From: Candidatus Omnitrophota bacterium | GTDB taxonomy: Bacteria; Omnitrophota; Gorgyraeia; Gygaellales; Profunditerraquicolaceae | Length of the DNA: 42,197 nt | Assembly (NCBI GenBank): GCA_026387355.1 | Contig: JAPLLW010000007.1 | Coordinates: 1 to 42,197 of the forward strand | Direction: 5' to 3' | Shown: positions 7,545 through 42,192 of the stretch, in pieces | Layout: each line of letters begins with the position of its first letter | Numbering within the stretch: position 1 is the stretch's first letter | Notes under the pieces: generated by a model | Seen by the model: only the letters and a program-made list of their open reading frames with translations | What the model was told of the DNA's origin: nothing | Databases searched by the model: none | Translations under genes and position numbers: made by a program

Positions 7545-8869
7545 TGACGCAATTAGAATACGCTAAAATAGGTAAACTTACTCCTCTAATGCGTAAAATC
7601 GCAAAAGTTGAAGGAGTTTTGCCTAAGCAATTATTAAATTATATAAAGACCGGTAAGGTTGTAATCCTGCAGAATAATTCCCACAATCTTAAAAAGCCCT
7701 GCGCAGTTGGTTTATCTCTGCGTACTAAAGTTAACTCCAATATAGGTACTTCAACCGATAAGTGTAGCATTAAGGATGAATTAAAGAAGCTGGCTGTATC
7801 AATAAAATACGGAGCTGACGCGGTTATGGATTTAAGCGTAGGCGGCTCTTTAAAAGCGATACGTAAAGAGATCCTAAGGCATTGCACTATTCCGCTGGGC
7901 ACAGTTCCAATTTATGAAATTGCCGTAAATGCGCAAGTTAGTAAGGGGACTTTTTTGAAATTCACTCCAACTGATATGCTCAGCGTTCTTGAGGAACAGG
8001 CAAAGCAAGGCGTTGATTTTTTTACCATTCATGCCGGAGTAACTAAAAATAATTTAGCTCTATTTAAGAAAAACAAAAGGGTCCTGGATATTGTTTCTAG
8101 GGGTGGAGCTATAATCGCCAACTGGATGAGTTATCATGAGGCAGAAAATCCTTTCTACGAATATTTTGACGAGATAATCGATATTGCTTATAAATATGAT
8201 GTGGTTTTATCACTCGGTGATGGGATGCGTCCGGGTTCAATTCTTGATGCTACAGATAAAGTGCAGATTGCAGAGCTTCAGACTTTAGGAGAGCTAGCGA
8301 AAATGGCAAGATCCAGGAATGTCCAGGTTATAATTGAAGGTCCGGGACATGTCCCTTTAAATCAAATTAAGGAAAATATTGTTTTAGAAAAAAAGCTTTG
8401 TGATCAGGCGCCATTTTATGTTTTGGGTCCTTTGGTAACGGATATAGCCAGCGGCTATGACCATATCAGCGCTTCAATCGGAGGCGCACTTGCTGCAAGT
8501 TTTGGCGCGGATTTTCTTTGTTATGTTACCCCAGCTGAACACTTGCGTCATCCTTCAATAGAAGATGTTAAAGAAGGGGTAATTGCTTCAAGGATTGCAG
8601 CTCATGCTGCTGATTTAGTAAAGAATAGAAAGTCTGCTATAAAATGGGATAGAGAAATGTCTTTGGCGCGCAAGGCGCGTGATTGGAAGAAGCAGATTAA
8701 GCTTTCCATAGATCCTGATAAGGCAAAAGAATATAGAAGGTCATCGCAGCCTAAGAATAGCGATGTATGTACAATGTGCGGGAATTATTGTTCAATTAAG
8801 CTGATGACGGAGTGCCTGCCTGCCGGCAGGCAGGGTCGGCCTACTGGCGGGAGTAATTTGCGGGCGTAG
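7544..8869 (+). CDS. thiC: Phosphomethylpyrimidine synthase
   Basis: 441 residues of the radical SAM superfamily enzyme that converts aminoimidazole ribotide to HMP phosphate. Typical segments are DAVMDLSVGG, DFFTIHAGVT, IANWMSYHEAENPFYEYFDEI, SLGDGMRPGS, IEGPGHVPL and GPLVTDIASGYDHI. The cluster-binding cysteines at the C-terminus read CTMCGNYCSIK. After this motif the protein ends with an unusual CLPAGRQGRPTGG tail encoded by a GC-rich palindrome (8815-8834). Its stop codon lies 8-10 nt inside the downstream tRNA gene, so the native stop was probably replaced when the palindrome inserted. It is the short form of ThiC, lacking the plant/proteobacterial N-terminal extension. Confidence 0.94.
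   Translation: MTQLEYAKIGKLTPLMRKIAKVEGVLPKQLLNYIKTGKVVILQNNSHNLKKPCAVGLSLRTKVNSNIGTSTDKCSIKDELKKLAVSIKYGADAVMDLSVGGSLKAIRKEILRHCTIPLGTVPIYEIAVNAQVSKGTFLKFTPTDMLSVLEEQAKQGVDFFTIHAGVTKNNLALFKKNKRVLDIVSRGGAIIANWMSYHEAENPFYEYFDEIIDIAYKYDVVLSLGDGMRPGSILDATDKVQIAELQTLGELAKMARSRNVQVIIEGPGHVPLNQIKENIVLEKKLCDQAPFYVLGPLVTDIASGYDHISASIGGALAASFGADFLCYVTPAEHLRHPSIEDVKEGVIASRIAAHAADLVKNRKSAIKWDREMSLARKARDWKKQIKLSIDPDKAKEYRRSSQPKNSDVCTMCGNYCSIKLMTECLPAGRQGRPTGGSNLRA
8815..8834. repeat. GC-rich 20-bp perfect palindrome in the 3' end of thiC
   Basis: Each half is CCTGCCTGCC or its complement, with no spacer. It is far more GC-rich than the surrounding DNA. Read in the thiC frame it encodes the CLPAGRQG peptide. 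Tails with this peptide are a familiar trace of a dispersed palindromic repeat in genomes from uncultured lineages (from memory). No second copy was noticed in this window. Confidence 0.8.
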
Positions 8870-8930
8870 TTCAATGGTAGAATGGCAGCTTCCCAAGCTG
8901 CAAACGGCGGTTCGATTCCGCTCGCCCGCT
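8860..8930 (+). tRNA. tRNA-Gly (anticodon CCC)
   Basis: 71 nt without encoded CCA. The acceptor stem GCGGGCG pairs with CGCCCGC at 8923-8929. The D arm GTTC/GAAT closes with a G-T pair. The anticodon stem GCAGC/GCTGC encloses loop TTCCCAA, giving anticodon CCC. The variable region is 4 nt (AAAC) and the T arm has the loop TTCGATT. It overlaps the last 10 nt of thiC, and the next gene starts 10 nt after it. Confidence 0.95.
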
Positions 8931-38500: not shown

Positions 38501-38911
38501 CTATACTTTATAAACTAAGTCGTGTTGTCTTACTCTAGAGTCAACCAAAAGCCCTATCTCTTGGCCAATTTTTGCCTGATTAACCGGCGCATGGTCAATT
38601 TGCATAGATGAAATAGTCTGTTTAAAGTCTGTTGTATGTCCCTTAATCTTGATTGTTGATCCTACTAATAAAGGAGCCTTAAGTTTTATAACCGCAGCCC
38701 GCACATGTGGAAAATAATGCGTAATAATCCCTACTGGCTTCTCTTTTGGTTTGATTTGTTTGGTTATGGGCCTTTTTTTAGATATACTTTTCTTAGCCGG
38801 CTTTCTTTTGATCGACTTTTTTTTGGTAACTTTTCTTACAATCTTCTTTTTGGCAGACTTTACCGGCTTTCTTTTAGTTACCTTTTTCTTTGCCTTCTTT
38901 TTTAAAGCCAT
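38501..38911 (-). CDS. Lysine-rich tail fused to an EF-Tu domain II-like barrel
   Basis: 136 residues in two parts. Residues 1-58 are histone H1-like, dominated by Lys/Arg with KKK and RKP repeats and few acidic residues. Residues 59-136 form a small barrel: GIITHYFPHVRAAVIKL, VGSTIKIKGHTTDFKQTIS, SMQIDHAPVNQAKIGQEIGL and a final DLVYKV, as in U32 peptidase C-termini and 'translation elongation factor-like' proteins. The tail should bind nucleic acid; the barrel's partner is unknown. AGGAGG precedes the ATG, and ParA-CBM48 lies 15 nt upstream. Confidence 0.72.
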   Translation of the reverse strand: MALKKKAKKKVTKRKPVKSAKKKIVRKVTKKKSIKRKPAKKSISKKRPITKQIKPKEKPVGIITHYFPHVRAAVIKLKAPLLVGSTIKIKGHTTDFKQTISSMQIDHAPVNQAKIGQEIGLLVDSRVRQHDLVYKV

Positions 38912-38926
38912 AAAGCACCTCCTTGT

Positions 38927-40015
38927 TTATATTTTAGCGTTTACTTCTACTAAGGAATCAACTGAGCCGTAAGGGTTAACCTCTTTTAGCGGATTTTTTG
39001 TGTCTTCTATCCAGTCTCCATCAACAATAAAGCGGTAGCGGTATTTACCGAACTTCAGGTTTAGTTTCTTGCTCCAGGTACCGTTATTTTGCATCATTCG
39101 GCTGTCATCATTGGTCTGCCAGTTATTGAATTCACCGGCAAGATAAACCTCTTTAGCATCAGGAGCGGATACAGAGAAAACAATCTCCGTAAACTTAGGG
39201 AGTTCTTTCTTTAATAGCTCTTTCATTTTCTTTTCTAAACCAAGCAAAGGAAGCGGTGTTTTTTCCTGGGTAATGATCTCCCGGGATAAAGAAAAATAAT
39301 CTTTGGCCCCGCGACAGTACTTATCATAGCTAAAGATATGGCTGCCATGGTTCTGGGCTTCTTTTAGCTTTACATTAACGTGGATAATGTTACTAAAAAG
39401 CGTATCTTTATAGCCAAGCTTAATTTTGTCCAACATCTTGAAAGAATGCGCAAGCCGGGAGTCAAAGTTAGTGACCAGTACCTTGTATTTAACATCATGA
39501 TTCAGGCGGTCCCTGACTAAATCGACTATGCTGATTAGCTGATCCAGTCCCTCAAGCGAAAATCTGCTTGCTTCAACTGGAATAATTACTTCATTAGATG
39601 CCCGGATAGCATTTATTGTCAAGATGCCTAGATTGGGTGGGCAGTCAATTAATACGTAATCATAGTTTCCTTTGAAATTATTCAAGGTATCCCTAAGGCG
39701 GGCTTCTCTGCCGATTTCGCCGGCTAACTCCTGTTCTAGGGTGCTTAAGATGATACTGGAAGGCGCTATATCAAAATCAGGGCTAATATTTTGGATGATA
39801 TCATCAAGTTTTGCTTTTTGATGCGCTATCTTTGATAGGGTATTATAAATGCTTAAAGAGGCCTTGATATTCAACCCTAATGTAGCATGCGACTGGGGAT
39901 CTAAATCAATTAAGAGAACTTTCCGGTTGTTGGTAGATAGTGACGCAGCTAAGTTAATTGCTGTAGTTGTCTTGCCGCAACCGCCCTTTTGATTAGTAAT
40001 AGCAATTATGCGCAT
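38927..40015 (-). CDS. ParA-family ATPase fused to a CBM48 glycogen-binding domain
   Basis: 362 residues. The ParA/MinD domain (about 1-255) has deviant Walker A KGGCGKTTT (Lys10, Lys15), switch I LLIDLDPQSHATLGL and Walker B YVLIDCPPNLG. After a short linker, residues about 276-361 form a CBM48/AMPK-beta-like domain: AGEFNNW (Trp299), RYRF and VDGDW (Trp335), at positions equivalent to the two glycogen-stacking Trp of AMPK beta. ParA proteins dimerise on the nucleoid with ATP and move cargo. The fusion suggests that the cargo is an alpha-glucan. It is in an operon with 40032-40595. No ParB is present. Confidence 0.9.
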   Translation of the reverse strand: MRIIAITNQKGGCGKTTTAINLAASLSTNNRKVLLIDLDPQSHATLGLNIKASLSIYNTLSKIAHQKAKLDDIIQNISPDFDIAPSSIILSTLEQELAGEIGREARLRDTLNNFKGNYDYVLIDCPPNLGILTINAIRASNEVIIPVEASRFSLEGLDQLISIVDLVRDRLNHDVKYKVLVTNFDSRLAHSFKMLDKIKLGYKDTLFSNIIHVNVKLKEAQNHGSHIFSYDKYCRGAKDYFSLSREIITQEKTPLPLLGLEKKMKELLKKELPKFTEIVFSVSAPDAKEVYLAGEFNNWQTNDDSRMMQNNGTWSKKLNLKFGKYRYRFIVDGDWIEDTKNPLKEVNPYGSVDSLVEVNAKI

Positions 40016-40031: not shown

Positions 40032-40595
40032 TTACTTAAGCAACCTAATGTTATCTATGTAGAGAACGCCGGATTTTGCAGTGGCGTTCCATTCTTCAAC
40101 AGAAAAAGTAAGCGATGATAATTCAGACCAGTCACGGATAGTTTTGAACTCCGAAAGATTAATTTTATAATCCTGCCATTTACCACTGAGATCTTTTACG
40201 TATATTTCTGATTTTTCCTTAAAGGCATTGGTGAATTCTACCCTTAAAGAGATTTTTTCGCTAGGATGCACATTTTTTACAGCAAAAGCAAGCGATTTAA
40301 AGCGTCCTACATTTAGTTTGTTTAAGTTAATGGTGAAAGTCTCTTTTTTTGCAGGATTAAAGTTGAAGTTTATCTTGGAGGCGTCGTTTTGTAAAACTAA
40401 GGCAATTTCTGAAGACAGGCCGTTCTTCTTAAATAACGAAGTAGCTAAAGTAGAGCCTAAACCTACTACTAAGAATATACTTATGATAAAAAGATTCTTA
40501 AAGAGTCTAGGGTAGGCCTTATTTTTCTTCTTTTTTTTAGAAGAAGCGTCAAGATAAATCTTTGCTAAGTGCTCGTAGATATCCTTTTTATCCAT
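40032..40595 (-). CDS. Membrane-anchored carbohydrate-binding-like protein
   Basis: 187 residues. A 30-residue cytosolic N-terminus carries KKKKKNK. One membrane helix follows (about 33-54), then a C-terminal beta-sandwich (about 60-187) resembling galactose-binding-like carbohydrate modules: FTINLNKLNVGRFKSLAF, KWQDYKINLSEFKTI and VLYIDNIRLL, the usual ending of such modules. The positive-inside rule puts the sandwich in the periplasm. It lies 16 nt upstream of ParA-CBM48 and is the first gene after an excellent promoter. The short basic tail could stimulate ParA, as ParB N-termini do (inference). Confidence 0.7.
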   Translation of the reverse strand: MDKKDIYEHLAKIYLDASSKKKKKNKAYPRLFKNLFIISIFLVVGLGSTLATSLFKKNGLSSEIALVLQNDASKINFNFNPAKKETFTINLNKLNVGRFKSLAFAVKNVHPSEKISLRVEFTNAFKEKSEIYVKDLSGKWQDYKINLSEFKTIRDWSELSSLTFSVEEWNATAKSGVLYIDNIRLLK

Positions 40596-40607: not shown

Positions 40608-40636
40608 TTTATAACATAAAACCCGTTAGATGTCAA
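40608..40636 (-). promoter_or_regulatory. Internal promoter for the CBM48-ParA operon
   Basis: On the - strand TTGACA (40631-40636), a 17-nt spacer and TATAAA (40608-40613). The -35 element overlaps the end of the GH57 gene. The predicted start near 40601 gives a leader of about 6 nt before the ATG at 40595, with no Shine-Dalgarno, so translation is probably leaderless. The operon can be expressed apart from GH57. Confidence 0.7.
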
Positions 40637-42192
40637 GGGTTTAGAGGGCTATTTAAATAATCAGGAGGATTTTTGTTAATGATGATGTAAAAGTTAGTTA
40701 GGTGCCTACGGAATAGCTTATCGAATGATCCATCCGGGTCTTCCCCGTACCACCAGAACCAATCGCTTCCTTCAGCAATATATATCTGCTTCCAGGCTAA
40801 GGCTTCTTTTTCTTTTGTGATATCAGAGCCTAAATTATCCAGCTCTTTTCTTGCTTCAAGCAGCCAATCCCAGGCTTTAACCTTGTAAGGGTTGCCCATC
40901 CACTTATCGAAGTTTCCGTAGATCCATGATCCTGCAGTTAGATGCTTAATTTTTGATTTTGCGGGGTGATCTTTTAGATAATCAGTTACCGTGGTTGTAT
41001 TTATAAAGTGAGATTCTGATAAACGTGTATATAGTAGCTCAAGAAAATCATGGCCGTCATTAGTATAATATTCCCAGGCATTTTCTCCGTCCATTGCCAG
41101 GGTAACTAAGATGTCGTCTTTACTAAAAGCCTTATTTATGTTGGTTAGGTGTTTTATGAAGTCATCCACTGCATTTTCTGCTTTCCAGCTATGGTAAACA
41201 AATCCAAATAGGTCAGAAAGGTTGCGGTCGCGAAAGACAACATTCAGCTTTCCCTCTTCCCTGCTTAATAAATGCGGCTGATAAAGAAGTGCTGTGTCCC
41301 TTTTTTTCTTTTTTAATGATTTAAAGAGTATGGCTTCGTCTGTGACAATCCAATTGATCCCGGAGTTAATTATAAACGGAAGAATGCTTTCAGATACAGA
41401 TTCTTCTGATGGCCACATTCCTTGGGCAGGTATTGCGAATTTGTCATGATAAAATTTAACCGCGCTTTCAATCTGAAACTTAGCGTCAGCCGGATAACGA
41501 AATTCAGATTTAGGAAGCAGGCTCTTAAGATTTGCTTCTTTTGCGCTGTTAGTGCTGCAGAGTAGCGGTAATATTGGATGATAATACGGAGTAACACTTA
41601 ATTCAATCTGTCCTCTTTTGGCAAGTTTCTTATAAGTGGGGATGATTTCTTCTAAAATAATTAGCTGCTTATCTAAGACGATATGCTTGTCTTCTTCAGT
41701 ATAAAGCCTGCCTTTATTTACAATATTTCTTAATTCAGGGTAACTTTCTCTAAAAGACGGGTCTATCCAGGCTAGATTAAACCAGACTTGCAGATCCAGG
41801 TAATCCTGGGTATTAAACTCCTGTTTGTTTTGTTTCCTAAGGTACAATTCATAAAAACGCGGGAAATATGCGATAACCTTTTCCTTGTTAATGGAGAAGA
41901 AATTATTTAAGATAAAGGCTTTTTCGCTAGAGGTAAGGTCTTTTGCTTTTTTGTAAGAAAGCTCTAGATATCTATCTTTAATATTCCGGTTTGTATAATC
42001 AATGATCTGCTCAAGTAGCGAAGGAACCACATTAAAGGTAAGTTTTATTTTAGGGAAGTCTTTTAGCATTAGCGCCATATCAAGGTAGTCTTTGACTCCA
42101 TGAAGCCTTACCCAGGGTAGGTCAGTCTCATGGGTTAAGAGATCCTTGTAGTATGGTTGGTGCATGTGGAAGATAAAAGCCAAATGTATCAT
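40633..42192 (-). CDS. Glycoside hydrolase family 57 (alpha-amylase/glucanotransferase-like)
   Basis: 519 residues, cytosolic (no signal peptide). The start HLAFIFHMHQPYYKD has the GH57 region I HQP. Region III GMWPSEESVSES carries the nucleophile Glu263; region IV TLAMDGENAWEYY carries the acid/base Asp368. The C-terminal helical part has GSWIYGNFDKWMG. GH57 enzymes act on alpha-1,4- or 1,6-glucans such as glycogen or starch; exact specificity is not clear. It sits upstream of the ParA-CBM48 genes, a shared alpha-glucan theme. The ATG is 6 nt from the window edge, so the promoter is not visible. Confidence 0.9.
   Translation of the reverse strand: MIHLAFIFHMHQPYYKDLLTHETDLPWVRLHGVKDYLDMALMLKDFPKIKLTFNVVPSLLEQIIDYTNRNIKDRYLELSYKKAKDLTSSEKAFILNNFFSINKEKVIAYFPRFYELYLRKQNKQEFNTQDYLDLQVWFNLAWIDPSFRESYPELRNIVNKGRLYTEEDKHIVLDKQLIILEEIIPTYKKLAKRGQIELSVTPYYHPILPLLCSTNSAKEANLKSLLPKSEFRYPADAKFQIESAVKFYHDKFAIPAQGMWPSEESVSESILPFIINSGINWIVTDEAILFKSLKKKKRDTALLYQPHLLSREEGKLNVVFRDRNLSDLFGFVYHSWKAENAVDDFIKHLTNINKAFSKDDILVTLAMDGENAWEYYTNDGHDFLELLYTRLSESHFINTTTVTDYLKDHPAKSKIKHLTAGSWIYGNFDKWMGNPYKVKAWDWLLEARKELDNLGSDITKEKEALAWKQIYIAEGSDWFWWYGEDPDGSFDKLFRRHLTNFYIIINKNPPDYLNSPLNP

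Follow-up and report, generated by a model that had tools for sequence, protein, structure and literature searches.

A ParA-type ATPase fused to a CBM48 domain, conserved in Omnitrophota and other bacterial phyla, and the probable partner encoded beside it

The DNA analysed here, a stretch of 42,197 nucleotides from a Candidatus Omnitrophota contig (hereafter the window), carries a cluster of four genes on the same, reverse strand. In the order of transcription these encode a GH57 alpha-glucan enzyme of 519 aa (40633..42192), a protein of 187 aa (40032..40595), a ParA-type ATPase fused to a CBM48 domain (38927..40015) and a protein of 136 aa (38501..38911), separated by gaps of 37, 16 and 15 nt, and a porin-like gene lies further upstream, past the window edge. 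The initial annotation gave no strand and placed the GH57 gene next door to the ParA gene; GH57 is indeed nearby, but the 187-aa gene, which was overlooked, lies between the two. Of the 70 Omnitrophota loci with enough flanking sequence, 40 have a GH57 gene close to ParA, no more than 1.2 kb upstream of it; in other phyla none was seen among the direct neighbours of the fusion. The 136-aa product, whose gene lies near ParA in 54/70 Omnitrophota loci, begins with Lys-rich repeats like those of histone H1 and ends in a small domain that, by eye only, recalls domain 2 of EF-Tu; it matched nothing in Pfam or in a sequence search of the PDB. Another gene, absent from the window and encoding a 108-aa membrane protein that by eye is DUF4870-like, occurs near ParA in 32/70 Omnitrophota loci, lying there between ParA and the gene for the Lys-rich protein (e.g. 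L017:11120-11446). Rfam gave no match at the locus, and promoter and terminator scans returned no more than shuffled sequences did. Elsewhere in the window, a tRNA-Gly (CCC) was located at 8860-8930, between thiC-like and LysM/M23-like genes.

The fusion gene starts with ATG and encodes 362 aa. A ParA-type ATPase (residues 1-252) is followed by a helical linker (~253-273) and a CBM48/AMPK-beta-type domain (~274-360). In Pfam, AAA_31 matched residues 1-176 (E=4.3e-56), AMPK1_CBM (PF16561) matched residues 286-360 with 54.1 bits (cut-off 26.8), and CBM_48 (PF02922) scored 29.5 bits (cut-off 22.4). The PDB sequence search returned ParA 8ray_B (1.5e-53), Soj 1wcv (6e-38) and the AMPK beta-1 CBM 1z0n (2e-9). 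The AlphaFold2 model had a mean pLDDT of 92.5, with both domains at ~90-98 and a less certain linker (block pLDDT 61-75 across residues 251-280). Its ATPase part superposed on Soj/ParA structures at TM ~0.9 (target TM 0.91-0.94 for the best) and, as modelled, has the ParA/Soj fold. The initial reading of a ParA ATPase with an intact deviant Walker A and a C-terminal CBM48 domain was thus borne out by Pfam, by PDB matches and by a confident model. The deviant Walker A (KGGxxGKT with the signature Lys) is complete, as are the Walker A' and Walker B Asp residues: K10, G11, G12, G14, K15, T16, D39 and D124 are invariant in a curated alignment of 57 sequences from several phyla, in which the whole motif NQKGGCGKT is unvaried. 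The Cys of this motif (KGGCGKT) is Val in the Soj of the same genome. Arg187, the counterpart of which has a role in DNA binding in Soj, is also invariant.

The CBM48 domain combines the profile match with both stacking tryptophans, which had been correctly placed by the initial annotation. Trp299 lies in codons 296-299 (FNNW, 39119..39130, minus strand) and corresponds to W100 of AMPK beta-1; Trp335 lies in codons 332-335 (DGDW, 39011..39022, minus strand) and corresponds to W133. In the first alignment of 105 rows, W was found at the Trp299 position in 104 and at the Trp335 position in 103, the remaining two being gaps; the one non-W row was a mis-picked paralogue. Both residues were invariant in the curated 57-sequence alignment and were kept in members added later from Desulfobacteria, Rokubacteria and Myxococcota, with the exception of one member shortened by a stop. 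Other AMPK contact positions were mostly conserved. The glucan-contact tryptophans, essentially invariant in these alignments, appear to be under strong constraint, which is the pattern that glucan binding would demand, and the fusion CBM48 may bind alpha-glucan. The domain is close to the glycogen-binding domain of AMPK beta (1z0n, 2f15), but it is bacterial, sits on a ParA ATPase and lies outside any kinase complex. A standalone 91-aa protein of the AMPK1_CBM type is encoded beside an lpxI-like gene on another contig of the same genome (L202:1595-1870, contig C36); small standalone CBM48 proteins of this kind are present in most Omnitrophota relatives and are a possible source of the fused domain.

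Searches recovered full-length relatives of the fusion in most of 58 Omnitrophota relatives and, among the 80 matches listed, beyond which lay many more candidates, in metagenome-assembled genomes (MAGs) labelled Desulfobacterales, Syntrophaceae, Rokubacteria, Eisenbacteria, Auribacter, Planctomycetota and Myxococcota. The gene is also present in the complete genome of Velamenicoccus, a member of Omnitrophota. Because the same fusion recurs in most of the 58 relatives and across phyla, a chance or assembly fusion is excluded. The fusion is a conserved family that spans several bacterial phyla, with a patchy distribution outside Omnitrophota (in Desulfobacterota, Rokubacteria, Eisenbacteria, Auribacterota, Planctomycetota and Myxococcota): it was carried by 11/192 genomes in the class of one Desulfobacteraceae carrier, by 9/95 genomes of the Rokubacteria phylum and by 34/189 Myxococcota genomes. 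In a tree of ATPase domains, five Desulfobacteria paralogues without CBM48 formed a supported group adjoining the CBM-bearing members; one fusion event followed by one secondary loss of CBM48 would be the simplest reading of this tree, the backbone of which is weakly supported. Second ParA paralogues that lack the CBM48, lying in the same Desulfobacteria genomes as the fusion (L131-L135 and L184-L188), end in an acidic tail, and in L131 and L133 the adjacent partner carries an RGL- or LGRGL-type peptide.

The genome also has an ordinary Soj-ParB pair on a different contig (C26), and in the ATPase-domain tree a long branch with full support sets its Soj, grouped with those of related genomes, apart from the fusion family. 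At the fusion locus neither an adjacent ParB-type CTPase nor parS was found: no ParB occurs among the neighbours of the fusion and no parS-like site within 3 mismatches lies anywhere in the window, which agrees with the lack of ParB/parS context reported initially. Ordinary chromosome partitioning was ruled out as the role of the fusion, since Soj and ParB are located elsewhere and are phylogenetically separate. Compared with chromosomal ParA/Soj proteins (T. thermophilus Soj 1wcv/2bek, H. pylori Soj 6iub, ParA 8ray), the fusion shares the ATPase fold, the deviant Walker A and the Walker B at TM ~0.9 and 33-43% identity, but differs in its extra CBM48, in KGGCGKT instead of KGGVGKT, in the lack of ParB/parS at the locus and in its separate clade. 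The McdAB system of carboxysome positioning, which has a non-DNA cargo, offers a second likeness, as it also joins a ParA-type ATPase (McdA 6non/6nop) to an adjacent partner with a charged N-terminus; identity to McdA is, however, only 23-24%, and here there are no microcompartment genes, the partner is a membrane protein and the ATPase bears a carbohydrate module. An McdAB-type system was rejected, as neither an McdB partner nor microcompartment genes were seen among the window and neighbouring genes.

The 187-aa protein, encoded directly upstream of the fusion, is its probable partner and activator. Among the 75 Omnitrophota loci with enough flanking sequence, 73 have this gene, or a relative with a like layout, directly upstream of ParA, typically with a gap of ~17 nt. 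One cluster supplies 65 of these genes and a second, similarly laid out, 7; the last is that of L047, where the ParA ORF had been called too long and the locus was re-read manually. The protein consists of a basic N-terminal peptide (residues 1-18, with a helix at 3-18), a Lys-rich linker, a transmembrane helix (~35-55; 29-55 in the model) and a jelly roll (65-186), the last modelled at pLDDT >90. The Lys-rich side before the transmembrane segment predicts an N-in, C-out topology, that is, a single-pass (bitopic) membrane protein with an extracytoplasmic jelly roll. The partner matched nothing in Pfam, nor did its profile in a sequence search of the PDB; structure comparison of the model showed resemblance to CBM11, CBM30 and CBM28 modules. 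CBM11 and related jelly-roll modules (6r31) were matched in Foldseek at E=3e-7, though at a TM of only ~0.45. The N-terminal peptide MDKKDIYEHLAKIYLDAS (partner codons 1-18, 40542..40595, minus strand) is the most conserved block of the protein, with a mean entropy of 1.09 bits in residues 1-18 against 1.92 in the jelly roll and 2.74 in the transmembrane segment, and position 3 is K/R in 43 of 44 relatives. Judged by sequence only, the 187-aa protein has the short, basic N-terminal peptide expected of a cognate partner, and we consider that peptide the candidate ParA-activating element.

Outside Omnitrophota, the adjacent partner gene lies on the other side, after ParA, and its product has an unrelated body, which may be Cys-rich, degenerate MinD-like or AAA; in Pfam most of these proteins fell into no family, one had a degenerate MinD-like domain and one was an AAA_22 protein. 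An activator-like peptide, LGRGLEDISHIFLS or RDLADVLHYFLP and variants, was found just after ParA in 56 of 67 such loci, and no such motif was seen in the other 11. The strict form LGRGL..[IV] accounts for 26/67 loci, as against 0/2096 control stretches, and the remaining 30 peptide loci rest on a looser pattern that was written after viewing the sequences and had no separate control. LGRGL resembles the start of ParB, and the ParB of the Omnitrophota genome itself begins MERKALGKGIGALIP. A position-specific scoring matrix (PSSM) trained on the LGRGL-type peptides gave the window peptide a score of 0.27, inside the background, and so established no tie between YEHLAKIYLD of Omnitrophota and LGRGLEDISHIFLS of the other phyla. 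One matrix to cover the activator peptides of every phylum was thus not obtained, and no sequence homology of the peptides is claimed. Their equivalence, which is not proven, is suggested by position, charge and hydrophobic pattern only. In several phyla a further gene follows the ParA-partner pair (L068:5821-6627, L074:12165-12809, L085:7864-8538 and L145:2811-3425); its product of ~200-270 aa belongs to no Pfam family and, by eye only, resembles a degenerate PD-(D/E)XK fold.

DNA, carboxysomes, divisomes, flagella and chemotaxis clusters are all known cargoes of ParA/MinD ATPases, which in every case work with a partner protein: its N-terminus serves the ATPase while the remainder binds the cargo (PMC10241942). 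In characterised activators, among them that of PomXYZ of Myxococcus xanthus, the active part is a short peptide at the N-terminus whose basic residues are essential (PMC13170346). PomXYZ likewise has a ParA/MinD ATPase but different partners and no CBM48. The fusion and the peptide of its neighbour fit this layout, by analogy. We consider it probable that the fusion is a dedicated ParA-type positioning ATPase that forms a two-component system with the adjacent gene, apart from the Soj/ParB of the same genome. In such a system, the ATP-bound ParA-CBM48 dimer would spread over a surface, probably that of the nucleoid; the neighbouring protein would bind it through its short, basic N-terminal peptide and thereby trigger ATP hydrolysis; and the partner with its cargo would move or space itself along the resulting ParA gradient. 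Since the Omnitrophota partner is a membrane protein, the object positioned there would most likely be a complex of the membrane or envelope; a granule in the cytoplasm would be less likely, unless the pair serves to tether granules to the membrane. The CBM48 of the ATPase, a putative glycan-binding or glycan-sensing module, would couple the cycle to alpha-glucan, as load or as signal, with glycogen a candidate ligand in Omnitrophota. This fuller reading, an alpha-glucan-coupled ParA machine, present in several phyla, that uses the activator encoded beside it to position a complex of the membrane or cytoplasm, with glycogen as the Omnitrophota ligand, would be the first with a polysaccharide-binding ATPase; we offer it tentatively, with more doubt than confidence.

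The initial annotation had gone further and proposed glycogen as the cargo: the CBM48 would bind granules and ParA would spread them on the nucleoid for even inheritance, with the partner stimulating release. What stands of this proposal is a ParA distinct from the chromosomal one, constrained tryptophans and nearby alpha-glucan genes in Omnitrophota; glycogen as cargo is weakly supported, and partitioning of this kind now seems unlikely. The near-invariant W299 and W335, the mostly conserved AMPK contact positions and the proximity of GH57 in 40/70 Omnitrophota loci speak for it. GlgA was found in 57/59 family genomes, and the genome studied here encodes glycogen synthase; the former agrees with a glycogen role, but GlgA is too widespread there to have any discriminating power. 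Strong GlgA matches in Desulfobacteria were present in 6/11 fusion carriers and in 41/181 other genomes (Fisher p=0.027, kinship uncorrected), a weak association; the 5/11 carriers lacking such a match had weaker glycosyltransferase matches, and some had phosphorylase. Against the proposal, the strongest conserved partner is the adjacent activator-like protein, which in Omnitrophota is membrane-anchored, rather than a glycogen enzyme, and no glycogen enzyme was seen among the partners outside Omnitrophota. Moreover, searches for GlgA, GlgB, glycogen phosphorylase and GH13 found none in 12 Myxococcota carriers (G081, G085, G414, G458, G433, G503, G472, G494, G499, G404, G477 and G551), which are MAGs that may be incomplete and in which GH57 was not among the targets; the GlgA and GH13 searches were positive in most of 14 control genomes. 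All 12 CBM48 domains keep both tryptophans. The family is therefore not confined to genomes making or using glycogen, as far as these MAGs and targets show, and homologues in genomes without glycogen genes, named at the outset as evidence that would count against the proposal, occur in part of the family and not in Omnitrophota.

The same Myxococcota genomes bear on two other explanations. If the CBM48 no longer bound glucan and its tryptophan face were a contact for protein, either partner or cargo, the system would be unrelated to sugars; the retention of the tryptophans where known alpha-glucan enzymes were not found, and the existence of paralogue systems without a CBM, would then be readily accommodated. 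Yet not only both tryptophans but also basic and Asn/Asp contact positions are kept across distant phyla, as expected for glucan binding, and GH57 was not among the enzymes sought in those genomes, and we judge a pure protein contact about as improbable as granule partitioning. A little less probable than either is a glucan-gated regulator, in which the CBM48 would sense cytoplasmic alpha-glucan as AMPK beta does and switch the ATPase, and the partner would signal to the envelope (the operon with porin and GH57). The AMPK-beta-type domain, the porin and GH57 as operon neighbours, and the single-pass partner with a jelly roll of carbohydrate-binding type would suit such a regulator, but the partner-ParA pair persists where GH57 or porin is not nearby, and in a set of carriers no known glucan enzymes were found.

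No ParA-CBM48 protein or ParA-glycogen system, and no experiment on any member of the family, was found in the literature searched, most subscription papers being outside its scope, and the fusion is apparently an undescribed, conserved variant of ParA positioning systems. A conserved ParA branch that has a carbohydrate module built in, and a partner family of its own, would add a new type of cargo or control, and how a sugar polymer could steer, or be steered by, nucleoid gradients would become testable; the candidate activator peptide predicted here is concrete enough for direct synthesis and testing. If glucan is actively handled elsewhere, this would contrast with E. coli, in which glycogen gathers at the old cell pole and displaces the nucleoid (PMC12706056). 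The proteins known to join storage granules to the nucleoid, PhaM/PhaF/PhaH and AlgP, are not reported as ParA-based, and their granules are of PHB or polyphosphate (PMC13052382). The H1-like part of the 38501-38911 product recalls AlgP of polyphosphate granules.
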